IMG/VR virus record: IMGVR_UViG_3300047471_000149
Location: 1 to 27,485 of that record
Length of the DNA: 27,485 bases
Direction: 5' to 3' (one strand)
Origin: a virus
The number at the start of each line of letters is the position of its first letter. Within the stretch, counting starts at the first letter, position 1. The notes below the pieces were generated by a model. The model searched no databases, was not told where the DNA came from, and saw only the letters and a program-made list of their open reading frames with translations. Positions 1,310 to 26,272 of the stretch are shown one piece after another. Position numbers and translations under genes: made by a program.

Positions 1310-2011
1310 CTATGCAAACTCGTAGATGATCATCACGCCCTGCCCGCCAGCCGCGCCAGCCGTCGCCGCGCCGCCACTCAGCGTGAGCGCCCCAGAGCCA
1401 CCGCCCCCGTAGAGCGTGCCCGCTGCGCCTGCGCCTTGGGCAATCACCTCGCGGCCCGATCCGCCCCACGGCCCATCCGCCCCACGGCCTGATGTTCCAA
1501 TCGCCGCCGTTGCCACGTAACTCGCGCCGCCTGAGTTCCCGTCAAAGACCACATCTCCAGCACCCGATGCTGACGATCCGCCCGCACCGCCGAGAATAAA
1601 GAGCGGACCCGTGCCACCCGCGCCACCAGACAGTCCCTTGACGCCACCTTTAGCAATCACCGTCGTGCTCGCAAAGGTCGTGTCGTTCCCGTCATTCCCG
1701 TTGTTATTCCCCGCCGTTGGGGCCGTGCCGCCCGCGCCCACCACCACGGTATAGGTGCCCGTAATACCCGTGATGAACTTGATCGACAAGGCGCCGCCGC
1801 CACCGCCGCTGCCAGCCGCCGCATTGGACGCGCCCACCGCGCTGCCACCAGACGCGCCGCCGCCGATGGCATACACCAAGATCGCCCGCGTGCCAGAGGT
1901 CGGGGTGTACGTGCTCGAACCCGTCGCCGTGACCACTTGCATGCCCGTGATGGCATAGCCGGTCGGTCGAGATGTGGCCAGCGTTCCATCGGTGTTGTAG
2001 ACGTTCTGCAT
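1310..2011 (-). CDS. Glycine-rich fibre-tip-like protein, copy 2
   Basis: A 233-residue protein starting at ATG 2011, with the start in a TAAATG junction with the gene before it. The N-terminal ~50 residues form a short beta region (MQVVTATGSSTYTPTSG). The rest is dominated by Gly clusters (GGGASGGSA, GSGGGGGAL, GGAGGTGPL, LYGGGGSG). It ends in a hydrophobic strand (QGVMIIYEFA). This is the layout of Gly-rich tail-fibre tip or receptor-binding domains found in many phages. It is clearly paralogous to the upstream neighbour at 2012-2689: both have a VVTATG/LVTATG..STYTP segment, a GPWGG block and a QGV..I.EF ending. It probably contributes to host recognition; the receptor is unknown. Confidence 0.85.
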   Translation of the reverse strand: MQNVYNTDGTLATSRPTGYAITGMQVVTATGSSTYTPTSGTRAILVYAIGGGASGGSAVGASNAAAGSGGGGGALSIKFITGITGTYTVVVGAGGTAPTAGNNNGNDGNDTTFASTTVIAKGGVKGLSGGAGGTGPLFILGGAGGSSASGAGDVVFDGNSGGASYVATAAIGTSGRGADGPWGGSGREVIAQGAGAAGTLYGGGGSGALTLSGGAATAGAAGGQGVMIIYEFA

Positions 2012-2689
2012 TTAGTAAAATTCCGACACAATCACGACGCCTTGCGCGCCAGCCCCGCCCGCCGCTGCCCCACCAGCATTCACGGACATCCCACCGGAGC
2101 CGCCCGCGCCGTAATTCCCACCGGCTACCCCGACGCTCTGTGATTTCACCGCCGCGCCGCCGCCACCCCAAGGGCCATGCGCGCCCTGCCCTGAAACCCC
2201 GACCGTACCTGAGATGCGATGTCCGACGCCACCGGCGTTCCCACCGAAGCGCACGTTGCCCTGTCCGCCAGCCGCCACGGTGTTATTGGCTGCGACAAAG
2301 GCTTCGGTCGTCCCGGTCGCCAAGGCATTCCCGCTCGTCCCCCCAGCAGCCGTGACCACCACCGTCGCCCCGACCGCCGCAGCAAGCTGCACTTGCGACA
2401 ACGAGGCCGCGACACCCACCGTCACAGTCAGCGATTGCGCCGCGAGATAGATCGCAGAATAGGTGCCTGAGCCGCCTCCGCTCCCCAGCGTAATCTGGCC
2501 CGCCGAGGAGTTTGCGGCGGAACCGCCATTCCCACCGCCCGCGACCACTTCGACGAGCAGAAACTTGCATCCGGCAGGAGGCGTGTACGTGCTGACCCCT
2601 GTCGCCGTCACAAGACTGCGCGATCCGAGCAGATAGCCAGTGAAGGCCGTCTGAACCGGCACGCCGTTCTTGTTGAGGACGGTTTGCAC
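2012..2689 (-). CDS. Glycine-rich fibre-tip-like protein, copy 1
   Basis: A 225-residue protein with a GTG start at 2689, directly after the TAA of the preceding gene (TAAGGTG); GGTGAG lies upstream as a ribosome site. Architecture matches the next gene: a short N-terminal beta part (SLVTATGVSTYTPPAGC), a central strand-rich part (TVTVGVAASLSQVQL), then Gly-rich loops (FGGNAGGVGH, GPWGGGGAAV, GAGGSGGMS) and a C-terminal strand (AQGVVIVSEFY). Gly-rich repeats of this kind form polyproline-II bundles in known phage adhesins. I infer a receptor-binding or fibre-tip role. Having two diverged copies side by side suggests broadened or switchable host range. Confidence 0.85.
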   Translation of the reverse strand: MQTVLNKNGVPVQTAFTGYLLGSRSLVTATGVSTYTPPAGCKFLLVEVVAGGGNGGSAANSSAGQITLGSGGGSGTYSAIYLAAQSLTVTVGVAASLSQVQLAAAVGATVVVTAAGGTSGNALATGTTEAFVAANNTVAAGGQGNVRFGGNAGGVGHRISGTVGVSGQGAHGPWGGGGAAVKSQSVGVAGGNYGAGGSGGMSVNAGGAAAGGAGAQGVVIVSEFY

Positions 2690-6869: not shown

Positions 6870-7850
6870 TTAGGAGCCTGGCGGGTAGTAGACACCCGTC
6901 TGCTGCAAGGTGGTGAACCGTGTGGGCCGTCGTGAGTTGGCCGTCGATCCGCTCGTCTGCCGCACGAAGGAGCGCATATCCGCAATGCCCTTCTGGAATC
7001 GCTGCTGCTCCAGTTGGACGAGCGCGACCTTCTCACGCTTCGTGTATTCGCGAATCAACGCGCCGGATTCGACCAGCCAATGGAAGTCTTCAGGAATCAG
7101 CGGCTCATCGCTCGCAATCGCCATGTCATTGACGTGCAGTTCGACATCGGCGTGGTAGGTGACAATGCCAGTGGGCGTCGGATGCAGGGCGATGCGCGTG
7201 TATCTGGCGGTCAGGTTTTGAGGAGCGATGATTGCCAGCGGAATCGTCTCCAAGAGGTCTCCGTAGAGGCTGACCGTCCCGATGGGAGCCGCCGTCAGGT
7301 AGAACTTCGTGACCTTGATCCACGTGGAGATATTGCTATCGACTTGCGTGGCCGTCGTGCCGTTCAAGGCGACTTTTCCGCGCCGATACGCACCGTCTGA
7401 CGTCACGCCTTCGACATACGCCCATGTGCCAGAGCCATCGCTGGCAGAATCAGACGCCACCCAGACACCAGAGGCCGACGGCGGGTCTTGACTCACCGGC
7501 GCCGCGTAGCTATCCACGTAATATTCGTACGGATAGGCCGTGATGGCCGTCAGGCCAGGATCAGAGTAGCGGACATCCTGAATGCTCACTTCACGGAGGA
7601 GCAACTTGCGCGTCCGATCCGCAATGCCGTGAATCTTGACGGCCGCTTCAGGTAATGACGCAAACCCCACATTCGCGATCGAGTTGAACGCCAGCACCGC
7701 CCGTCGGAGCCGTTCAAAGCCTCGCATGCCGAGGATGTTCCGATGTGTCTCGTTAATGGCTCTCCGAATCCTGTTCACCACGATCGGATCTGGGTTCGTC
7801 TGGTAATTGAGCCGTTCATAGACGGTCGCTTCAAGGTCTACGAGTCTCAT
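6870..7850 (-). CDS. Head-tail adaptor (connector) protein
   Basis: A 326-residue protein whose ATG 7850 overlaps the previous stop (ATGA). The N-terminal helices (MRLVDLEATVYERLNY, IVVNRIRRAINETHRNIL) and the C-terminal helical part (FHWLVESGALIREYTKREKVALVQLEQQRFQKG) bracket a beta-rich middle. This is the usual layout of phage adaptor proteins that sit under the portal (P22 gp4 / T7 gp11-like). It is longer than those because of a beta insertion at roughly residues 110-190. Genes on either side (fibre-tail adaptor and nozzle-like) support a role in the neck. I am confident it is structural and fairly confident of the adaptor role. Confidence 0.82.
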   Translation of the reverse strand: MRLVDLEATVYERLNYQTNPDPIVVNRIRRAINETHRNILGMRGFERLRRAVLAFNSIANVGFASLPEAAVKIHGIADRTRKLLLREVSIQDVRYSDPGLTAITAYPYEYYVDSYAAPVSQDPPSASGVWVASDSASDGSGTWAYVEGVTSDGAYRRGKVALNGTTATQVDSNISTWIKVTKFYLTAAPIGTVSLYGDLLETIPLAIIAPQNLTARYTRIALHPTPTGIVTYHADVELHVNDMAIASDEPLIPEDFHWLVESGALIREYTKREKVALVQLEQQRFQKGIADMRSFVRQTSGSTANSRRPTRFTTLQQTGVYYPPGS

Positions 7851-8140
7851 CGGTTCACCACTTCCACGCGAAAGGTGCGGTCGTCAATGCGCCCTTCATT
7901 CGTTGTGATTTCACAGGTCACATCGTAGGTGGTCCCGTCGCTGCCGCCTGTCAACCAAATGGTCGCATCGGTGGTCGAGAAACTGCTGGCAGAGTTGGTC
8001 AATCCCGACGGACTGATCGTCCAACTCACGTTCACGATGCGATCGTTGGGCGGCATCCACGGTTCCCAATCGATCGTGTAATCGAGTTCCGCGCTGGGGT
8101 CTTTCGGAATGACGGCAATCGGATTCGCAGATGTGGTCAT
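7847..8140 (-). CDS. Fibre-tail adaptor-like small Ig-type protein
   Basis: A 97-residue protein. The ATG at 8140 is chosen because it overlaps the stop of the fibre-like gene (ATGA); the frame stays open far upstream, but that part lies over the coding frame of the larger gene. It reads KDPSAELDYTIDWEPWMPPNDRI... then ...TIWLTGG..GTTYDVTCEITTNEGR...RTFRVEVV. This matches my memory of a common phage family annotated as fibre-tail adaptor (LDY..DW.. WL ... G..Y.V.C.I.T..GR...RT). It has one Ig-like beta domain and no membrane segment. Its place between the modular fibre gene and the head-tail adaptor gene agrees with joining fibres to the tail. Confidence 0.85.
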   Translation of the reverse strand: MTTSANPIAVIPKDPSAELDYTIDWEPWMPPNDRIVNVSWTISPSGLTNSASSFSTTDATIWLTGGSDGTTYDVTCEITTNEGRIDDRTFRVEVVNR

Positions 8141-9948
8141 GTGCGTTTCTTCGAGACCTTCATAATCCGATTGGGTGGACGTTCTGGCGCGACGGGGAAC
8201 ACGCGGTCCTCTTCGCGGACCTTCATAATATAGCGATACCCGATGCGTGGCGCGACAATGACGGCGCAGTCCGTGACACCGTTCGCGATGTTGCACTGCG
8301 GACTCGTCGCCGCCGCGCCGACGTTGACCGTGACGGTAATCGGCGGATAGGAGGCTCCCGGCGCGAGCACGTCTGATCGTGTGCAGACGTTCGCGATGCA
8401 GACCCAGCCCGTTCCCGCCATTGAGACGAGCGTGAGACCAGACGGAATCGTGTCGGTCACTGTCTGCACGCCCACCGTGTCGGCGTCTCCCGTGTTGGTC
8501 GCGACGATTGTAAATGTCGCCCCACCCTGTCCTTGATAGAACGGGTCCGTATGGCTCTTGATGACCGTGAGGTTCGGCGCAGGCGTCGTGGAGGCGAGCA
8601 TCAGCCACGCCCAGCCGACGTGACCAGAGGTGGGAGTCCCGCTGGCGACCGCTTGAATGGACAGACGGTCTGAGACCGTGGCGAATGCGACCGTGCCGTT
8701 CAATGGGTCCGTATTGAGGCGCGACCCTGGATCAGTCGCCGCCGTCATGGTAACGACTGGCGCGCTATTGGTGAAGGCTTTGCGCGTCGTGAAGAGATAG
8801 CTCTTCCCTACCCCAGGAGCCGTCCCGAGGTTGATACAGAAGCCTTCAAGCGTGAAGGGATCAATCGCCCCAGGTAACGAGACGAGCAATTCCGTCGAGG
8901 GCCATCGACTTGGGCGCCATGACGGGGCAGGGGTTGGAGACCGAGATGTCGTCCAGGCCCATCCAGAGAGCTGTGACCCCGCCCAATCTGTCGAGCCGTC
9001 CGCTATCGCGGTACCAGTGGCGCTATTGAAACAGAGCGCGGACTGTCCGTCTGTCGTCGCGCGGAAGCCGATCCCGATGTTGGCGAACGTGCTCTGCGGG
9101 CTTCCGCTGGTCGCGGTGCAGTTGATGGAGATCAGATCCAATGCCACGACAGGCAAGTCAAACGTCGCCACACCCACGAGCGTGGTATCGGCCATCACCA
9201 GCGTCGTATTGACTGTGCCGCCGCTGCCATCCTGCACGATGCCGTTTTTCACGAAATTGAAGGTGTAGGACTTTCCCGCTCCTGGTGCTCGCTCAAATTG
9301 GAGGTCGAATCGGTAGATCGACCCAGCCACCGGGACGATGCTGTGAATCTCCGTCTGGGCAATCGTGTCAGGAGCCGCGACAGGAATGAAGGCCGACTGC
9401 TGATTATTGAACGGCGCACACCAGGCCGTCGTGCCGCTGATCCGTGACCCTTGCGAGCCAGCGCCGTACCCGCTTTCTTTGACGTTCGTGCTCTCAAACG
9501 TCAGCGACCAGTCCACATGCGCGTATTCAGCATTGGTCTGTCCATGCAGTGTTTCGGCTGGACTCCGCTGAATCGCCAGCACGTCACCAGGTGCGACGGT
9601 CACGGAATGGGACGTATCCGTCGCCGCCGCATCGAATCCGTTCTGGGCAATCGGACCAGCCGCAGGCACCGTGACCGTCAGCGTGGTTGGCACCGCCACG
9701 CCAGCGACAATCTTGACCAACGTGAAGGTCGTATCGGTCCAAAAGATGGGCGCCGAGTTTTCGACCGGCGCGAGGATTTGTGCGTACAGATTCTTGAAGG
9801 TGCCAGCCACCGACCAGCACTGACTATGCTTGAAGACCGCGCTGGTTTCCCCGCCCAGCTCATTCGACCAGAGATTGCCACGGAGTGTCGTGACGGGCGT
9901 GCCGCTGCCCTTATCGCCGTAGGTCTTGCCGTGGATGATCTGTTTCAC
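8137..9948 (-). CDS. Large modular beta protein with DUF11-type C-terminal domain (fibre/appendage)
   Basis: A 603-residue protein with ATG 9948 overlapping the preceding stop (ATGA). Three similar ~130-160-residue beta modules can be seen: one near the N-terminus (SVTVAPGDVLAIQRSPAET), then FERAPGAGKSYTFNFVKNG...TFDLPVVALDLISINCTAT, then LGTAPGVGKSYLFTTRKAF...AFATVSDRLSIQAVASGTP. Residues ~475-570 match the DUF11 repeat pattern (NLTVIKSHTDPFYQGQGGATF, VTDTIPSGLTLVS, ACIANVC-type Cys pair, VNVG). The last ~40 residues are basic. DUF11 domains are typical of bacterial surface proteins and are less expected in a virion. Neighbouring adaptor genes make a fibre or appendage role most likely. Confidence 0.82.
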   Translation of the reverse strand: MKQIIHGKTYGDKGSGTPVTTLRGNLWSNELGGETSAVFKHSQCWSVAGTFKNLYAQILAPVENSAPIFWTDTTFTLVKIVAGVAVPTTLTVTVPAAGPIAQNGFDAAATDTSHSVTVAPGDVLAIQRSPAETLHGQTNAEYAHVDWSLTFESTNVKESGYGAGSQGSRISGTTAWCAPFNNQQSAFIPVAAPDTIAQTEIHSIVPVAGSIYRFDLQFERAPGAGKSYTFNFVKNGIVQDGSGGTVNTTLVMADTTLVGVATFDLPVVALDLISINCTATSGSPQSTFANIGIGFRATTDGQSALCFNSATGTAIADGSTDWAGSQLSGWAWTTSRSPTPAPSWRPSRWPSTELLVSLPGAIDPFTLEGFCINLGTAPGVGKSYLFTTRKAFTNSAPVVTMTAATDPGSRLNTDPLNGTVAFATVSDRLSIQAVASGTPTSGHVGWAWLMLASTTPAPNLTVIKSHTDPFYQGQGGATFTIVATNTGDADTVGVQTVTDTIPSGLTLVSMAGTGWVCIANVCTRSDVLAPGASYPPITVTVNVGAAATSPQCNIANGVTDCAVIVAPRIGYRYIMKVREEDRVFPVAPERPPNRIMKVSKKRT

Positions 9949-11491: not shown

Positions 11492-12379
11492 TTACCAGGC
11501 TGGTTCGCCGTTGGGGAGGACGGCGGGTTTGCCTTCCATCATCCGGCGCATGTTCACAAGGTCTTTCGCCATTTCGACGCCGGGATGCGCCGTGCGCTCC
11601 GATTCTTCGATCGTGAGGCCGACGCGGAGATGCAATCCGTCAATCTTCGCATCGACACGATCGGCGTGCTTCCGCGCCTTGCGTTTCTTCGCCGGTTCGC
11701 CTTCGGCGTGCGATTCGTAGGCGTACAGTTCCTTCGGTTCGTGACACAAGGGCGACGTCGGGGGAATGACGAGCTGCACGCCGCGCCCAGCCGCGATACC
11801 CGCCCAAAACTCCGCGCCGGCGCGCTGCTCCGCGTATTCCGATCCGAGTTGGTAGTGAATCCCGAAAAAGCCGAGATGCGACACGCCTTCGGTCAGCGCG
11901 AGCGCGACCATGTAGGCGGTATGCGACGTGAAATAGCGCGGAAACTCCGACAGAATCCGATCGAGCGGGTACCGCACCGAAGACGGCACTTCTTGACGCA
12001 GTTCTGCAAGAAAGATCGGCGCCTTTTCCCGCTTGAGCCACGACAGATAGCCTGGAGAGCCTTTCGACTCAATCCATGACCACGGATGGAGGTCGAAGTA
12101 GCGATCGACGCGCCGGCAGAGCGTGTGAATGGTCGCGTGCGCCCAGATTTCCCACGACGGATCGAACCACGGGGTCTGATCGATGGTGGGTGCCGATCCG
12201 ATGATGGCGATTTTGCGTTGGGTGCCGATGCCGAGATGCCGCTGCGGCAGAATGGTCGGGGGTTCGTAGGCGCGGTCCCCGTGGGCCACGAGGACGGCTG
12301 GCGTGATCGGCTGACCTGGACGCAGATGTCCCAAGGGGGTGATGGTATTGGAACGATCCTGTCCGTCCGTCCGACTCAC
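11492..12379 (-). CDS. Rossmann-type protein resembling sialyltransferase/MptE-like (DUF115-type) enzymes
   Basis: A 295-residue protein with a GTG start at 12379 behind a GGGAGG ribosome site. After a ~55-residue basic lead comes a first strand and loop KIAIIGSAPTID (~56-67), then WEIWAHATIH, RVDRYFDLHPWSWIE, and RYFTSHTAYMVALALTEGVSHLGFFGIHY (~148-176, shown for position). VQLVIPPTSPLC then closes the fold. This order resembles the GT42 sialyltransferase CstII (start of the fold AGNGPSL; later TSGVYMCAVAIALG, then IYLSGIDFY and CPNSPL) and related MptE/DUF115 proteins that many phages carry. The C-terminal 80 residues are charged and helical. A glycosyltransferase role would pair with the neuBCA cassette, but is inferred. 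A non-enzymatic phage role is possible. Confidence 0.85.
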   Translation of the reverse strand: MSRTDGQDRSNTITPLGHLRPGQPITPAVLVAHGDRAYEPPTILPQRHLGIGTQRKIAIIGSAPTIDQTPWFDPSWEIWAHATIHTLCRRVDRYFDLHPWSWIESKGSPGYLSWLKREKAPIFLAELRQEVPSSVRYPLDRILSEFPRYFTSHTAYMVALALTEGVSHLGFFGIHYQLGSEYAEQRAGAEFWAGIAAGRGVQLVIPPTSPLCHEPKELYAYESHAEGEPAKKRKARKHADRVDAKIDGLHLRVGLTIEESERTAHPGVEMAKDLVNMRRMMEGKPAVLPNGEPAW

Positions 12380-12398: not shown

Positions 12399-12959
12399 TT
12401 ACGATGCGAGACCGAACCAGCCCGCCATGAACGGATAGTTCAGTTGGGCCGTGAACGGCGCGACGAGGGCCGAGGTACCAAACGCCGTCGAGGCGCAGGT
12501 ATTCGGCGCGGTGCGCGCGAGTGCATTGAAGATCGCCTGGTTCGTGTCGGCCGAGGTGGCCTTGTCCACGTACCCGACGTCCGTCGTGGCGATGGTGATC
12601 AAACCATCGGCCGTGGTGACGCCAGAGCTGCCGAGCGCGCCGGTGTGGACCCCGTAAATCTGGACCCATCCGTACCGCAAGGTGGCCGAGACCGTCTGTC
12701 CAGCAGAACCCGCCATGACGATGCCCACCCAGCCGCGCGCGCCGGTGGTCAGAATCGTCGCCAGAAAGTTCTGGTCGAACTGGACCCATGAGCCGTAGAT
12801 GAACCCCGTCGCTAACGGGGCCGCGCCGAAGTCCACGAACACGTACTCGTTGCCGTTGACGTCGGTTGCCCGCGTGCCGAGCGGGATGAACACCGACGAG
12901 AACAGTTCTGAGGTCTCGCCAGGAATGGCGGCGCCTCCGCGTCCTGAAATGACAGCCAT
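12399..12959 (-). CDS. Probable head accessory (decoration-type) protein
   Basis: A 186-residue protein directly after the capsid gene. ATG 12959 has a strong AAAGGAGG ribosome site, suggesting high expression. The sequence is rich in Gly, Ala, Thr and aromatic strands (NEYVFVDFGAAPLATGFIYGS, TLRYGWVQIYGVHTG, LITIATTDVGYVDKATS) and almost without basic residues. It has no signal peptide or catalytic motif. A highly translated small beta protein immediately downstream of the major capsid protein is most often a decoration, cement or head-fibre protein. I do not recognise the exact family. Confidence 0.82.
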   Translation of the reverse strand: MAVISGRGGAAIPGETSELFSSVFIPLGTRATDVNGNEYVFVDFGAAPLATGFIYGSWVQFDQNFLATILTTGARGWVGIVMAGSAGQTVSATLRYGWVQIYGVHTGALGSSGVTTADGLITIATTDVGYVDKATSADTNQAIFNALARTAPNTCASTAFGTSALVAPFTAQLNYPFMAGWFGLAS

Positions 12960-12976: not shown

Positions 12977-13951
12977 TTACGTGATTGCGGTGATCACGCC
13001 GAGACGGCGTGGGTTATCCGACACCAGGTTGAACACCGTGAGAATCTTCACGACGTCCGCGAACTGGTTGGCGGGGTTGACGGCCGGTGACGCCTTCATC
13101 CAGTACATCCAGCGGATGAACAGGTTGCGCCGGTTGAGGAGATACATCAGGCTGGCCGGTGCAGCCCGATCGTACGCGATCGGGATGTCCTTGAACATGA
13201 TGTGATCGCCAGCGTAGCCGGAAATCAGTTTATCGGAGGCCGAGGTCCGGTTGAGGCGTTCCAGGGTGACGCTGAGCGATTCGTACCCCTCGAAATCCGT
13301 CTGATCGGTCACGCCGAAGTCCGGTGTCTGCATCGCCGCGCCGGACGAACAGTTGTTGTACACCGTGCGCATGGTCGATTTCAGGTTGTCGAAGGCGGTC
13401 GAGGACTTCGCGCCCGAGGACTGCTGGTTGCGCCAGAACGAGTAGGTCACGCGGCTGATCGCGCCCACGGTGCCGGTCGTCGGCGTCGAGGACACGATGT
13501 ACTGGAGACCGCCTGCCTGTTTGCTGCTGGTGCCGGTGCCGTCCGAGAACAGGTCGGTGTTGATCTGGGACTGCATGGAGTTCTTGAGGTTCTCCATCTT
13601 CGCCGCTTCCAGATCGAACTTGCCGGCCGCGCCTGCCGTCTGTCCGCGCTCGAAGTCGGACATGACGATCAAGCCGCCGACGAGTTTCCACGGGTACTCG
13701 TAGCGGTCGAACACATCGACGCGCGTGACGTCGAGGGTTTCGAGTTCCGACATGCTCTTGGTGGTCGTGTTGGTCTGGTACTCGATGGTGCCCGTGATGG
13801 GATCGCCGGCGCCCTTCTTGAAGGTGTCACCGATGCGCAAGTTTTCCAACAGCCAGAAGTATTGAAACACCTGGTCAGCCGGATCTTGCTTTACGTAATC
13901 CTCCCACGCGGACGCCACTACCTGCCCTTTGTTCGGGCCAGGAATGGACAT
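12977..13951 (-). CDS. Major capsid protein
   Basis: A 324-residue protein starting at ATG 13951 with a GGGAGA ribosome site. It follows the scaffold gene and precedes a decoration-type gene, the standard place for the major capsid protein. Sequence features agree with an HK97-fold capsid subunit: an N-terminal arm (GPNKGQVVASAWEDYVKQDPAD), a long helix region (GKFDLEAAKMENLKNSMQSQIN, near the expected spine helix), a mixed A-domain (YSFWRNQQSSGAKSSTAFDN) and a strand-rich end with IMFKDIPIAYDR...NRRNLFIRWMYWMKASPAVNPANQF. The block DIPI..D....A......LN...L..R is typical of phage capsid proteins of this type. No protease domain is fused. Identification is strong from context and good from sequence. 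Confidence 0.85.
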   Translation of the reverse strand: MSIPGPNKGQVVASAWEDYVKQDPADQVFQYFWLLENLRIGDTFKKGAGDPITGTIEYQTNTTTKSMSELETLDVTRVDVFDRYEYPWKLVGGLIVMSDFERGQTAGAAGKFDLEAAKMENLKNSMQSQINTDLFSDGTGTSSKQAGGLQYIVSSTPTTGTVGAISRVTYSFWRNQQSSGAKSSTAFDNLKSTMRTVYNNCSSGAAMQTPDFGVTDQTDFEGYESLSVTLERLNRTSASDKLISGYAGDHIMFKDIPIAYDRAAPASLMYLLNRRNLFIRWMYWMKASPAVNPANQFADVVKILTVFNLVSDNPRRLGVITAIT

Positions 13952-21508: not shown

Positions 21509-23107
21509 TTACATCACCATCCCTGCTTCACGGCGAGGCGTTCGCCAATCATCCATCAACGCGCGTGCGGAGTCTTTCGGAATCGTCACCGACGCCGGCT
21601 TGAGAATCCGTGGCGATGGGCGTGCCATGAGTCCCAGTCTCACCGCATGGGCGGCTTGATCCTCTTGGCCGGCGTCGATGTCTTCGGGGTTGTCCTTGTC
21701 TTCGACCAATGACGCCAGCGTGCGAATCGCAAACTGACACCGAGGATGAATCAACAACCACGGGGCGCCGTCTGGGGCCATCTGCAACCAGTGTCGCACA
21801 CGTCCCCAGCCCTGCACGGGGTCCGTATCATCGCACCAGAGCGGCAGACCTGAGCGGGCGAACGTATCGGCATACGATTCGCCCGACAAGCCCGCGCCCT
21901 TTTCCATCTCGGTGTGCCCCACGGTGCGACCCAGTACGCCACGGACCTCATCACGGAGATACGCGGACTGGCGCTTGACGTCGTGGGCCACGGCCGAGGC
22001 GACGCGCTTGGCTTCAAAGAGCAGTTCATCCAGGAGGTAGATCCGCCCATTCGGGAAGACGAGCACGAACAGACAATAGGCTTTATCGCCCCAGCGTACC
22101 CAGCGTTCAATCTTGCAGCCGTGCGGCAGATCGGGAATCAGCTTGACGTGACCGGCTTCGGAAAACTCGTTGAAGAACTGGCCGACGATCGCAGACCAAT
22201 CGCCTTCAAGAAGCTGGCGCCGTCGATCCACGTCATACGCATACAGCCGTTTTTCGTAGTTGGTGTAGGTGCCGTCCGCGTCCATGAGGTACGGGTTGTC
22301 GTAGAGACTGGCCTTGATGAAGGTGTAGTCGTTCGGGTCATAGCGCGGGTTCTCGGCGGCGCTCACGTTCTTGTCGATGAAGTGTGAGACGCAGAACTTG
22401 TGCGATGGTCCCCCAGGATTGGTCGTGAGAATCATACGCGAGATGCGATGCAGGCGCTTCTCATCGTTGCGGAGTCGTCCCGCAATGCCCACGATCTGAT
22501 TCTTCAGGAGCCGCGTGGCTTCATCGCCGCCGAAGAGGTCGTATTCTTCCGAGAGATACCGCTCCTCGTCTCCGAGCGAGTTGACGTGCCCGAAGATGAT
22601 TTTGGAGCCGGTCAGTTCGCAGATCAGGGCGGGCGGCTGTTTGCCGAGCGACATGATCTTCCGACCGGCCGCGAGGTTGATGTTCTGCACCTCGCGTTCT
22701 AACTTGTCCAAGTGGGTGCGGCGCAGTTCTTCGAGTTCGCGCCGGACAATCAGTGTGCGGAAGTCTTCGTACGTGAGCGAGCAGCGCAAGGCTTCCCAGC
22801 GGAGACCAAACGATTTCGATCCGCCAGCGGCCCCGCCCCAGAGGATGTTGGGCGTCTGTGAGGCATGGAGCGTGACACCTTTCGGCGTGGGGTGGTAGAG
22901 CCACTTCGCGTCGGCCGCACTCGCGACGGTTGCGAGTGTGCCGTCTGGATTGAAGCCCACGCCATAGGCGTAACGGTCTTTTTTCAGGTAGCGCGTAATC
23001 TGTGCGTGCGTCCAGTGATGCGCGTGCAGCCAGCGGCGCCAGTGGCGTTCGGTCCATTCAGAGACGGCCGGCCAGACGTGCGTCCCCTTCGGCGGATTAA
23101 ATTTCAC
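21509..23107 (-). CDS. terL: Terminase large subunit (packaging ATPase)
   Basis: Motor that pumps DNA into the head. The start is set at GTG 23107 because it overlaps the 23-residue ORF's stop (GTGA); a longer frame from 23230 would overlap neuA. The resulting 532 residues fit the family. Walker A GGAAGGSKS is at ~91-99, Walker B LFGGDEAT at ~194-198, and the coupling motif TTNPGG at ~228-233. The C-terminal part follows the RNase-H-like nuclease layout (GLSGESYADTF, QGWGRVRHWL, HPRCQFAIRTL, EDQAAHAVRLGLM). The acidic residues expected in the three motifs appear replaced: RWG for DWG (~338), GHTE for ADP-type (~398), and AAHAVR for AADAVR (~487). ATPase assignment is firm; nuclease activity is doubtful. 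Confidence 0.85.
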   Translation of the reverse strand: MKFNPPKGTHVWPAVSEWTERHWRRWLHAHHWTHAQITRYLKKDRYAYGVGFNPDGTLATVASAADAKWLYHPTPKGVTLHASQTPNILWGGAAGGSKSFGLRWEALRCSLTYEDFRTLIVRRELEELRRTHLDKLEREVQNINLAAGRKIMSLGKQPPALICELTGSKIIFGHVNSLGDEERYLSEEYDLFGGDEATRLLKNQIVGIAGRLRNDEKRLHRISRMILTTNPGGPSHKFCVSHFIDKNVSAAENPRYDPNDYTFIKASLYDNPYLMDADGTYTNYEKRLYAYDVDRRRQLLEGDWSAIVGQFFNEFSEAGHVKLIPDLPHGCKIERWVRWGDKAYCLFVLVFPNGRIYLLDELLFEAKRVASAVAHDVKRQSAYLRDEVRGVLGRTVGHTEMEKGAGLSGESYADTFARSGLPLWCDDTDPVQGWGRVRHWLQMAPDGAPWLLIHPRCQFAIRTLASLVEDKDNPEDIDAGQEDQAAHAVRLGLMARPSPRILKPASVTIPKDSARALMDDWRTPRREAGMVM

Positions 23108-23175
23108 TTGAGGCGTATGCGCGCGGAGATCCACAGCAGGAACACGCCCACGGCGAACAGCTCCAGCGGAGTCAT
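23104..23175 (-). CDS. Membrane micropeptide (23 aa) between neuA and terL
   Basis: ATG 23175 overlaps the neuA stop (ATGA) and its TGA at 23104-23106 overlaps the terminase GTG (GTGA). The peptide is MTPLELFAVGVFLLW plus a short basic tail (ISARIRLK), i.e. one likely membrane-spanning helix with positive residues at the C-terminal side. Too short for normal gene finders, it is supported mainly by filling the 65-base space with perfect overlaps on both sides. Function is unknown. Confidence 0.5.
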   Translation of the reverse strand: MTPLELFAVGVFLLWISARIRLK

Positions 23176-23849
23176 GCACGAGCCATCGCCTCTTTCCAGG
23201 CGAGTCGTACTTCCGCAATAGCCCAATCATCAGGCGTGTCGAGTTCGCACGTCTCTGATTTCGGAACCATGAGTGGAACGCATGGTTGGAGATACCACGG
23301 CATCCACGCCTGATCTGTGTTCACCTGTCCACGCCGGAAGGCATAGACGGTGCCGTCGCGTCGGAATACGAGCCGTGCATCCTGACGACGCTCCTCCGTC
23401 GTTAACTGATCCCACGGGAAGACGCAGCCTTGGTTGAGTTCCATGACCTTCTGCGTCGATTCCGTTGGCGTCAGACTTACGACCGATGCGGCGCCACCGT
23501 CCATTAGGCGAATGGCTTCCGCGAGATGCTTTGGTTCTCGCAAGGGCTGTGTCGGTTGCACAATGAGAATGATTTCGTCTGGCGGTCCTGGCATCACCTC
23601 AAGGAAGTCGCGCACCACATCGATCATCGGCGTATCGTCTTGCGCGAGATGCGCCGGACGACGCATGGACAGCCAGTTGGTCGCGGTGGCGTGCTCGTAG
23701 TCCGTGCTCACGATGCAGCGGACGTGCGTAGCATTGCAGCAATCGACCGCGCGCTGCACCGGCGTGATGCCGTGCAGATGCGTGAAGTTCTTGAGTTGAA
23801 TCCCCTTGGACCCTGTACGCGCCGGAATGATCGCGAGGACGTCGCTCAT
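23172..23849 (-). CDS. neuA: CMP-nonulosonate (acylneuraminate) cytidylyltransferase
   Basis: Activates a nonulosonic acid with CTP to CMP-sugar. ATG 23849 is chosen because it overlaps the neuC stop (ATGA); the frame is open far upstream but lies there over neuC. The 225 residues match single-domain bacterial enzymes. Visible motifs: nucleotide loop AIIPARTGSKGIQLKN (~6-21), STDYE (~48-52), RRPAHLAQDDTP (~63-74), LIVQPTQPLREP (~95-106, the family LQPTSPLR), SVVSLTPTESTQK (~122-134), FRRDGTVYAFRR and LDTPDDWAIAEV (~203-214). All key parts seem intact. Third gene of a neuB-neuC-neuA set; whether the sugar is sialic, legionaminic or pseudaminic acid cannot be told. Confidence 0.85.
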   Translation of the reverse strand: MSDVLAIIPARTGSKGIQLKNFTHLHGITPVQRAVDCCNATHVRCIVSTDYEHATATNWLSMRRPAHLAQDDTPMIDVVRDFLEVMPGPPDEIILIVQPTQPLREPKHLAEAIRLMDGGAASVVSLTPTESTQKVMELNQGCVFPWDQLTTEERRQDARLVFRRDGTVYAFRRGQVNTDQAWMPWYLQPCVPLMVPKSETCELDTPDDWAIAEVRLAWKEAMARA

Positions 23850-24979
23850 GCCACGAAGGTCCGCTGCTTCGCCGCGCGATGACTCAGCACCGTTTGCGTG
23901 ATCGCATGGGCTACGAGGTCGCCCGATCCAGGCAGACCGTAGAGCGGTGACGACGCGAACGTGCGTGTCGCGTGCTGAGCGATCGCAAACTGAATCGCGC
24001 GGACATCGAAGGTCGGAATGTCGAGTACGTTCGACGCGCGCTCGCGCCGTTCCTGTCGCAGTCCGATGTTCACGACCGGGACGCCGAGAAAGGCGCACTC
24101 GCGAATCCCGACACTGGAATTCCCCACGAGACACGACGCCTGCGTGAGCAACTTCAGAAACCGTTCTGGCGGCAGATTCCGCACGGTGCGAAACGGAATC
24201 GCGGGATTGAACGTTCGCATCTGCTTCGACACGCTGTCGGCGTCGGCGTCTTCGCCAGGCCAGAAGCAGATCGTTGGATACCCAGAGGCTTCGCACGCCG
24301 TCAGCGTCGAGAGCATGTCGAACGCATTCGATTCGACGCGCGTATCGGTATGCTGCAACACGACGAGGAACGGCTGCGACAGGTCCATCGGATCGCCGCG
24401 CCCGCCGAGTTCTTCCAGCGTGACGCAATCCTCCTGGTCGATACCGCCCGCGAGGTCGATGGAGGGACAGCCCGTGAGCCAGACCGTCGCGCCAGGCAGA
24501 ATGCGCTTGACGTAATCCTGCGCGTCTAGGGTCGCGACACAATGCGCATCCGCGAGCTGCGTGATCGCGTGTCGAACACGGTTATCGATCGACCCTGAGT
24601 GCTCACCACCTTGCAGATGGACGAGCGGGATGTGCTGGTAGGCAGCGGCCATCGCGGGTGCCAGGACTTCGTGCCGGTCGGCAATGACGACGGCGGCGTC
24701 CGGCTTGACACGAGCGAAATGTGAGGCGCATTCGGAGAGCAGCGTGCCGGTTTCCTTTGCTGATGTCTCACGCGTGGCCCCTTCGTAGGTGCTCCAGAGT
24801 TCCGTGACCTCGCAGCGAAAATCTTTCTTGATGACGTCCGCGACACGGCCGTAGCGGTCGAGCAATGTGCTGGCGGCGCAGACGATGTTCACGTCCACGT
24901 CGCGGGTGTGGAGCGCCTGGATCGCGGTCTTCACGCGCGCATAGGATGGACGGGCCGTGATGACGACGGAGACGGTCAT
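23846..24979 (-). CDS. neuC: Hydrolysing UDP-sugar 2-epimerase, NeuC/LegG-like
   Basis: Makes free ManNAc (or a diacetamido analogue) from a UDP-HexNAc, the first committed step to nonulosonic acids. ATG 24979 overlaps the neuB stop (ATGA). 377 residues, the normal length (E. coli NeuC is about 390). Motifs: VVITARPSYARVKTAI (~5-20), DRHEVLAPAMAAAYQHIP (~101-118), LVHLQGGEHSGSIDNRVRHA (~119-138), VGNSSVGIRECAFLGVPVVN (~285-304) and IGLRQERRERASNV (~305-318). The GGE.SGSID..RHAI block marks the hydrolysing NeuC/NeuC-like branch over plain WecB. Second gene of the cassette; no frameshift or missing motif seen. Confidence 0.85.
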   Translation of the reverse strand: MTVSVVITARPSYARVKTAIQALHTRDVDVNIVCAASTLLDRYGRVADVIKKDFRCEVTELWSTYEGATRETSAKETGTLLSECASHFARVKPDAAVVIADRHEVLAPAMAAAYQHIPLVHLQGGEHSGSIDNRVRHAITQLADAHCVATLDAQDYVKRILPGATVWLTGCPSIDLAGGIDQEDCVTLEELGGRGDPMDLSQPFLVVLQHTDTRVESNAFDMLSTLTACEASGYPTICFWPGEDADADSVSKQMRTFNPAIPFRTVRNLPPERFLKLLTQASCLVGNSSVGIRECAFLGVPVVNIGLRQERRERASNVLDIPTFDVRAIQFAIAQHATRTFASSPLYGLPGSGDLVAHAITQTVLSHRAAKQRTFVA

Positions 24980-25731
24980 GCGAGCACCGGGACGTTGACG
25001 TGCTGCCAGCGGCCGATGAAGCGCGACGGGTTCTCGTCTGCGAACGCGCGCAGGGCGCGAAACTCTTCGATGGTCGCTTCGTACGGTTTAGCGGTGCGGC
25101 CCTGAAAGGGTAACTGCACATGCTTTTCGATCATGCGGGCGCCCTTCACGATGGCGAGTTGTGCGCCCTCCAACCCGACGCAGTGATCCGACCAGCCGTA
25201 GTGTCCCAGGTTCACGGTCGCCGCCATGACGGGACACGGATAGCGCGAGACGGTCGTCAGCGGATAGACCTTCGTGAGATTCCACTTCATGCGCGTGGCG
25301 CGGCTGGAGTCGAGTTTATTCACGCGCCAGAAGTTCTCTGGAGGATTCGACACGTAGATGCGCTGAAAGCCCTGTGCCATCACGGCATCGCGCACGGTGC
25401 GCTCATGCGACTCACCCGCGCCGATTTTCACGAAGGGCGAGAACGATCGCAGAATGGGCGCTTCGTCGGCATGGTTGATCGTGCAGAGGAATTTCACGCC
25501 GAGGTGCCCGCACAACTCTGCGAGCTGCGCGAGATAATCATCGGACAACTCGGCGCGTTGAAACCATGCGAACTGCGAATCGGAGGGCCGCAGATGCGCC
25601 ACGCGCGTCATCTGGAATTTGATCCAGTCGGCGCCGGCTTCTGCGAAGCGATAGCAAAACTCTTTCGCGAGCGACAGATCGCCGCCGTGATTCGAGGAGA
25701 CCTCTGCGACCAGTTCAATGCGACGAGTCAT
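24976..25731 (-). CDS. neuB: Nonulosonic acid synthase, NeuB-type, lacking SAF domain
   Basis: Condenses a ManNAc-type sugar with phosphoenolpyruvate. ATG 25731 overlaps the previous stop (ATGA). TIM-barrel motifs: VAEVSSNHGGDLSLAKEF (~8-25), AGADWIKFQM (~32-41), FVKIGAGESHE (~100-110), RYPCPVMAATVNLG (~163-176, family YP.P...vNL), YGWSDHCVGLEGA (~178-190) and GARMIEKHVQLP (~197-208). The metal-site histidines of SDH and EKH are kept. The protein ends at 251 residues, whereas usual NeuB is about 340-360 with a C-terminal antifreeze-like SAF domain, here absent. The usual GPDH segment after EKH..L is replaced by FQGRTAKPYEAT. So it may be a minimal variant. Function is inferred but well supported by neighbours neuC and neuA. 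Confidence 0.85.
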   Translation of the reverse strand: MTRRIELVAEVSSNHGGDLSLAKEFCYRFAEAGADWIKFQMTRVAHLRPSDSQFAWFQRAELSDDYLAQLAELCGHLGVKFLCTINHADEAPILRSFSPFVKIGAGESHERTVRDAVMAQGFQRIYVSNPPENFWRVNKLDSSRATRMKWNLTKVYPLTTVSRYPCPVMAATVNLGHYGWSDHCVGLEGAQLAIVKGARMIEKHVQLPFQGRTAKPYEATIEEFRALRAFADENPSRFIGRWQHVNVPVLA

Positions 25732-25994
25732 CGGCCGGCTTGCATGAGACGCAACAGCGCGGCGGAAATGTTCTGCTGCGCGTTGTTGACCAGTGGGCGC
25801 GCTTGCGCGGCGAGGGCTTGTGCTTTCGCTTTCGCAGCTTCAATCGCGGCGAGTGTGGACGATCCCGCGTCCTGAATCATGCCGGGGAGTTGTGGCACGA
25901 GATTCGACGCTTGCTGGCCGAGCGCACCGACCGCTTGCGGAATCCGCATGAACGGTTCGGACTGCGCGAGATTCTTCCCGGCCGGATCAGGCAT
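25728..25994 (-). CDS. Ala-rich helical small protein (88 aa)
   Basis: ATG 25994 lies two bases after the previous stop (TAGCCATG), and the gene ends in an ATGA overlap with neuB. The 88 residues are amphipathic and helical (STLAAIEAAKAKAQALAAQ, NNAQQNISAALLRLMQAG), with a Pro-containing lead (PDPAGKNLAQSEPFMRIP). No membrane span or enzyme motif. Coupled to neuB in translation, but a shared job is not shown. Small Ala/Gln-rich helical proteins upstream of terminase genes may include small-terminase-like proteins, though no DNA-binding motif is visible here. Confidence 0.75.
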   Translation of the reverse strand: MPDPAGKNLAQSEPFMRIPQAVGALGQQASNLVPQLPGMIQDAGSSTLAAIEAAKAKAQALAAQARPLVNNAQQNISAALLRLMQAGR

Positions 25995-25996
25995 GG

Positions 25997-26272
25997 CTAG
26001 TACTTGCCGACGTCGTTCGTGCCTTCCGCGATGTCGTTCGGCTTCTCGCCAGGCTTCGGCGGTTTCTTGATCATGTGCTTGAGGAGCGACGTCGCGATCG
26101 CGTGCTGTGGGTGCATGGGTCGCGCTTCACGTCGTAAGCCTGGCGTGGCCGCAAAGTCGTGGAGTTGCGTGTGGTTCATCGAGAGCATCCCGCGATTAGC
26201 GGGGTTGAGTTTCGATGGCTCGTGTTCTGCGATCGCAGCGGCGACACGCTGGTTGCGGCTCACGGCTGGCAT
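25997..26272 (-). CDS. Small protein resembling DUF3008-type phage proteins (91 aa)
   Basis: ATG 26272 with AAGGAG seven bases upstream. Reads MPAVSRNQRVAAAIAEH then ...GMLSMNHTQLHDFAATPG..., the layout of DUF3008 proteins (MPAVS..Q.......A ... M....L.dFA.T...GLP), which occur often in phage genomes with no known function. The C-terminal part is basic and Pro-rich (IKKPPKPGEKPND). First gene after the possible promoter at 26297-26326, so it may begin the late transcript. Confidence 0.8.
   Translation of the reverse strand: MPAVSRNQRVAAAIAEHEPSKLNPANRGMLSMNHTQLHDFAATPGLRREARPMHPQHAIATSLLKHMIKKPPKPGEKPNDIAEGTNDVGKY

Follow-up and report, generated by a model that had tools for sequence, protein, structure and literature searches.

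The window analysed here is a whole IMG/VR virus record (IMGVR_UViG_3300047471_000149; 27,485 bases), and on its minus strand, at 23172-25731, lies a cassette of three genes assigned to the synthesis and activation of a nonulosonic acid, a sialic-acid-like sugar. In transcription order these are neuB (24976-25731), for a nonulosonate synthase of 251 amino acids (aa) that has the barrel domain only; neuC (23846-24979), for a hydrolysing UDP-N-acetylglucosamine (UDP-GlcNAc) 2-epimerase of 377 aa; and neuA (23172-23849), for a CMP-nonulosonate synthetase of 225 aa. Directly downstream on the same strand follows the large terminase gene terL (21509-23179; PF04466, 31.7 bits against a cut-off of 23.2; phrog_979). 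The original prediction of three neu-family genes in a row was exact in its coordinates, and the Pfam matches of all three are over their cut-offs. The ATGA overlaps that it described are found at neuB/neuC and neuC/neuA and, in addition, between neuB and a preceding 88-aa open reading frame (ORF; 25728-25994, minus strand), which has no assigned function, belongs to the same inserted block and is 75% identical to its copy in a sister phage.

The cassette had also been said to run into a micropeptide gene and the terminase gene. The second half of this stands, since the GTG start of terL at 23179 (GTGCATGA), common to the sister phage, overlaps the 3' end of neuA, whereas the supposed micropeptide is nested in terL and is no separate gene. 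It is a hydrophobic 23-codon frame (MTPLELFAVGVFLLWISARIRLK; 23105-23176, minus strand) that begins at the neuA stop and lies inside the 5' end of terL; the sister (L004) keeps this frame open (MMLRDGLAVLLLLLWIYARTRLK), and it may be translated or may be a by-product of terL conservation. Reference to a "phage of this size" was misleading, as the window is probably a fragment of a longer phage genome, the sister record being 40.6 kb.

The three enzymes

In Pfam, NeuB matches PF03102 at 60.8 bits (curated cut-off 22.1), NeuC matches Epimerase_2 (PF02350) at 155.8 bits (cut-off 30.6) and NeuA matches CTP_transf_3 (PF02348) at 42.6 bits (cut-off 22.6). When compared with NCBIfam equivalogs, NeuC exceeds TIGR03568 (249.6 vs 235.9 bits), NeuB falls under TIGR03569 (68.9 vs 399.65 bits) and NeuA falls under TIGR03584, the PseF equivalog (74.3 vs 205.7 bits). 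Sequence searches of the PDB returned SpsE, NeuB and PseI as relatives of NeuB, the GNE epimerase 4zht as the nearest solved structure to NeuC (E 1e-43) together with other hydrolysing epimerases, and the CMP-N-acetylneuraminic acid (CMP-Neu5Ac) synthetases 6ifd and 1eyr as those nearest to NeuA. Motifs are also seen in NeuC (ADRHE, GGEHSGSIDN and QH) and in NeuA (ARTGSKG..KN, QPT and RRQ). Membership of the enzymes in their named families, as first proposed, is upheld; the PDB relatives are those expected, and the agreement goes well past what chance would produce.

NeuB calls for closer description. Its core residues H15, K38, Q40, K102, S128, H183 and H204 are invariant in all 21 aligned phage NeuBs, and K38, K102, S128, H183 and H204 are what we take to be the metal-binding and phosphoenolpyruvate (PEP)-binding core. 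Past the metal-binding histidine at the end of the barrel, the 21 phage proteins carry 38-65 residues (47 in the window protein), compared with 110-116 in bacterial NeuBs (n = 4), and a search for a SAF domain in the window and 11 other contigs found none. In characterised NeuB synthases the SAF domain completes the active site, and the barrel-only protein, judged by its sequence, departs from these full-length enzymes. Nevertheless, loss of the SAF domain need not mean an inactive enzyme, because the PDB holds a NeuB-family member, 6ncs, of just 290 residues. We regard the window protein as a NeuB-family barrel protein predicted to work like NeuB rather than as a standard NeuB, and a functional CMP-nonulosonate pathway in this phage is very probable.

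Recurrence of the cassette and its transferase partner

The same block occupies the same place in the sister phage (L004/L005), whose TerL is 87% identical to that of the window, and is missing between the same neighbours in L006/L007 and L008 (TerL identity 82-83%); because L004 matches L005 exactly along 12.8 kb and L006 matches L007 exactly along 12.2 kb, each pair was counted once. At the empty site in L007 and L008, the homologue of a 91-aa ORF that marks the upstream edge of the inserted block in the window (25997-26272, minus strand) stops a few bases before terL. The 88-aa ORF was not found between these neighbours in L006-L008, and no NeuB was found across the whole 40.7-kb contig of L007. 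The cassette is under purifying selection: between window and sister, the ratio of nonsynonymous to synonymous substitution (dN/dS, NG86) is 0.41 for NeuB, 0.14 for NeuC and 0.26 for NeuA, and the 88-aa ORF (0.19) and TerL (0.10) gave values in the same comparison, as did the transferase candidate introduced below (0.07).

The cassette also recurs, which speaks against a one-off. A NeuA scan of viral records returned 16 further IMG/VR contigs besides the sister records, nearly all with NeuB and NeuC, and some 15 further IMG/VR contigs, from several phage lineages, have the order neuB-neuC-neuA on one strand, with intervening genes in some. It lies upstream of terL in L050-L056, whose TerL proteins are 29-36% identical to that of the window (44% across one short fragment), upstream of a portal gene (P22-like or other) or portal homologue in L057-L064, and upstream of the major capsid gene in L065. 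The view that the cassette functions as part of the phage is thus sustained by the sister block, the empty site in relatives, purifying selection and this recurrence. As a side observation, a methyltransferase-family gene accompanies the cassette in the portal-linked lineage (L057:4255-4995, L058:4192-5004, L060:2-958, L063:771-1643 and L064:1419-2333) and may serve methylation of the sugar or its carrier. Relatives turned up among 50,697 deposited phage records as distant epimerases, as NeuB of two large uncultured viruses and on a Moritella contig that is bacterial; no cultured phage carrying the set was found among the deposited phage records searched. No report of a phage neu cassette was found in the open-access literature, where a paper on a Bacillus megaterium phage matched through unrelated words. 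Scans of genome contigs gave no bacterial relatives of NeuC or of the transferase, and the NeuC tree, with only three bacterial rows and long branches meeting, carries no information on origin.

A fourth gene belongs to the picture. The 295-aa ORF at 11492-12379 (minus strand), the second gene downstream of the major capsid gene, is a GT42/Maf-like transferase candidate put forward from Foldseek, profile search and co-occurrence; its copy in the cassette-bearing sister has 92% identity, and the cassette-free L007 is without it. A scan of viral records turned up 232 stretches that encode relatives. Neither Pfam nor NCBIfam has a name for the family, and only two of 52 members match, marginally, one unnamed PHROG. 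In a predicted structure built with these 52 members, one core domain was modelled confidently, and a Foldseek search of the PDB with it placed GT42-type sialyltransferases (CstII, CstI and Pasteurella) in all of the top 12 positions (probability 1.00, E 1.5e-4 to 3.6e-3), followed by SteA at probability 0.98. The family profile, run against PDB sequences, likewise has GT42-type sialyltransferases in places 1-8, at weak E-values of 0.03-0.4. In Pfam, the best family member reaches 13.0 bits with CST-I (PF06002), under the cut-off of 25, the window protein has no match to this family, and one member scores 14.4 bits with MptE-like/Maf (PF01973), under the cut-off of 34.6. Where catalytic and CMP-binding residues would be expected, the Gly, Thr/Ser and Tyr positions are kept, and the Asn of the LN motif is replaced in the window subfamily.

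The association between this family and the neu genes runs in both directions. A CTP_transf_3 domain was found in 28 of 39 transferase-family contigs and NeuB in 23, rising to 18 and 16, respectively, of the 20 contigs of at least 30 kb; among 36 control contigs picked by an arbitrary 15-mer, none had CTP_transf_3, NeuB or the transferase. Conversely, 13 of the 19 contigs with the cassette have the transferase, among them every one of the 11 that reach 16.8 kb or more, as against none of 11 cassette-free relatives. Fisher p-values overstate this association, because the contigs are interrelated, the family was found via similarity to cassette-linked members, and PF02348 is broad, also taking in other CMP-sugar synthetases such as KdsB. 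In L061 a transferase homologue separates neuB from neuC, in L162 the gene lies within the cassette and overlaps both, and the cassette contig L065 also carries a homologue.

Two further arrangements of this family were seen. In L101, L118, L121, L149 and L154 the transferase gene has a cytidylyltransferase gene as its direct neighbour, either overlapping or abutting (e.g. L101:6692-7471 and 7455-8720), and NeuB was not found on the searched contigs L101, L118, L121 and L149, which possibly represent a variant using another CMP-sugar or a host-made one. Among deposited phage records, a relative of the transferase was found solely in that of Microcystis phage Mvi-Yong1342-1 (PP496355.1; L163:8058-8861), where the gene directly precedes the terminase genes; its annotation there as a "type 11 methyltransferase" may be mistaken.

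Proposed pathway and its alternatives

In the pathway that we infer, enzyme activities, sugar identity, transferase function and virion acceptor alike, NeuC would convert host UDP-GlcNAc to N-acetylmannosamine (ManNAc), NeuB would condense ManNAc and PEP into a nonulosonic acid, most likely of Neu5Ac type, NeuA would activate this acid as its CMP-sugar, and the GT42/Maf-like protein would transfer the sugar from CMP to an acceptor, most likely Ser/Thr of an adjacently encoded head protein. We lean, by a little, towards this whole chain, in which a sialic-acid-like sugar made by the phage is placed by it on a protein, most likely a head protein. Several points weigh against it. NeuB is without the C-terminal SAF domain and scores far under both the NeuB and the PseI equivalog cut-offs of NCBIfam; 11 of the 39 transferase-family contigs, some about 40 kb long, show no CMP-sugar synthetase; the TM-scores of the Foldseek sialyltransferase matches are just 0.36-0.48; the window transferase is without the Asn of W-x-LN, a residue present in 33 of 52 family members, and no GT42 catalytic base was identified in the 295-aa protein; and the acceptor is proposed from gene neighbourhood alone.

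That neighbourhood consists of the major capsid protein gene (12977-13951, minus strand; phrog_9953 major head protein, E 1e-42), a gene for a 186-aa head-associated protein (12399-12959, minus strand) and the transferase gene, in an order shared by the window, L085, L086, L088 and L239. Both head proteins are possible, if speculative, acceptors, and the position of the transferase beside the capsid gene favours a head protein in this role; that the acceptor is a virion protein is, on balance, the option we prefer. Among the uses suggested originally, coating of the virion is now the best supported, although indirectly. The sugar might instead alter the host surface during infection (lipopolysaccharide, capsule or flagellin), hindering superinfection, with a phage or a host transferase working on a glycan or protein of the host. 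Bacterial GT42 enzymes act on lipooligosaccharide (LOS), the Pasteurella match 9c08 being annotated as an LOS sialyltransferase, and in L162 and L061 the transferase is in the cassette and away from the capsid gene. However, the transferase stays fixed among the head genes in the window and several relatives while the cassette moves, and no membrane or export component was recognised among the cassette genes, so that this alternative is a minority possibility of some weight.

Separately, the predicted structure of the 186-aa protein is of poor model quality, and its use as a co-marker of the cassette was dropped after a profile search gave divergent longer homologues in cassette-free relatives. 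One such case is a 305-aa ORF of cassette-free L007 (L039:6768-7685, minus strand), which follows the major capsid gene at the position of the 186-aa protein and which a weak profile match suggests to be its divergent homologue.

It is likely that the 295-aa protein is the transferase of the CMP-nonulosonate pathway. If it were another member of the same fold group, MptE-like or SteA-like, a host transferase would use the CMP-sugar, and the moderate fold similarity, the rank of SteA just behind the sialyltransferases and the slightly better fit of one member to MptE-like than to CST-I, both under cut-off, would agree with this. Against it stand the 12 best fold matches and the eight best sequence-profile matches, which are all sialyltransferases, and the two-way co-occurrence with CMP-sugar genes, unexpected for an unrelated enzyme; we consider it unlikely.

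As for the sugar, the window NeuC and every phage NeuC found by motif search carry GGE-x-[ST]-G-[ST]-ID, as do GNE and bacterial NeuC, and a LegG-type structure in the PDB alignment shows GGEITEGAYD instead. No LegB/LegC or PseB/PseC was recognised among the annotated proteins, although no dedicated search was made and the window is possibly incomplete. Since the NeuC motif is of GNE type and these enzymes were not recognised, our best guess is a ManNAc intermediate and a Neu5Ac-type product. The identity of the sugar, which had been described as not visible, is in this way narrowed by a NeuC of the UDP-GlcNAc/GNE type over the LegG type. Alternatively, the enzymes might produce a different 2-keto-3-deoxy sugar, or their role might lie elsewhere, for example in modifying DNA or depleting a host metabolite, in which case the barrel-only NeuB would reflect an altered reaction. 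The fast divergence of this SAF-less NeuB, its distance from the equivalog cut-offs and the further CMP-sugar synthetases covered by PF02348 speak for such a reading, but NeuC is over its own equivalog cut-off with a GNE-type motif, and the four genes travel together, which fits a route that makes, activates and transfers a nonulosonate; the alternative is quite improbable. A chimeric assembly, or a newly arrived bacterial passenger without function, for which the close relatives without a cassette might speak, is extremely unlikely. The junctions are the same in the diverged sister phage, and two samples gave identical copies of the sister's record; the frames are open, with overlapping starts and stops and dN/dS well under 1; G+C and GC3 are like the rest of the phage; and the cassette recurs in distant phages.

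Elsewhere in the window, two neighbouring, related glycine-rich ORFs resembling tail fibres (1310-2689, minus strand; phrog_863, PF21722) have the look of a tandem duplication. A sigma-70-like promoter candidate at 27482-27455 (minus strand) was rejected, as a single match is not above chance expectation.

Comparison with known systems

Nonulosonate synthesis and protein glycosylation are both known; a phage system doing both was not found in the material searched. The broader proposal, which is tentative and to which we give slightly less than even chances, is that a widespread, undescribed class of phages with barrel-only NeuB, NeuC, NeuA and a new GT42-like family coats its capsid with nonulosonic acid. 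The SAF-less NeuB, the sialyltransferase-like gene near the capsid gene and the recurrence of the system, on which this proposal draws, had been missed in the original prediction. If it is true, some phages build and attach a sialic-acid-type sugar themselves, beyond borrowing host glycans, more than 200 uncharacterised phage proteins gain a testable function, virion nonulosonylation becomes testable by one mass-spectrometry experiment, and enzymology gains a compact barrel-only NeuB.

The bacterial Neu5Ac pathway, as in the capsule locus of Moritella viscosa (L066), draws on the three enzyme families found in the phage, and the chemistry to be expected does not differ. The gene order differs, however, being neuA-neuB-neuC in L066 and neuB-neuC-neuA in the phages, and the L066 NeuB is a protein of 347 aa with 112 residues past the metal-binding histidine, as opposed to 38-65 and no SAF domain in the phage proteins. 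In addition, the phage neu genes sit among packaging and head genes, unlike those of a capsule locus. GT42 sialyltransferases (CstI, CstII and Pasteurella 9c08) share with the phage family the alignable stretches G-x-x-P-S and ym-x-A-x-A..g-x-x-e-I-x-l-x-G-v-d, but the phage family remains under the CST-I cut-off and the nucleotide-binding motif of the window member is partly different. The closest functional analogy is offered by the Maf flagellin transferases (PF01973), which have a CstII-like core and put nonulosonic acids, including Neu5Ac, directly on Ser/Thr of flagellin, an acceptor that is itself a self-assembling surface protein (PMC11339370). Maf has three domains, in contrast to the one confidently modelled core domain of the phage 295-aa protein. 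Among phages, the mycobacteriophages Che8 and Rita are reported to have glycosylated capsids and their own glycosyltransferases (PMC11256854); the window phage would also make the activated sugar, and one of a different class, a nonulosonate.

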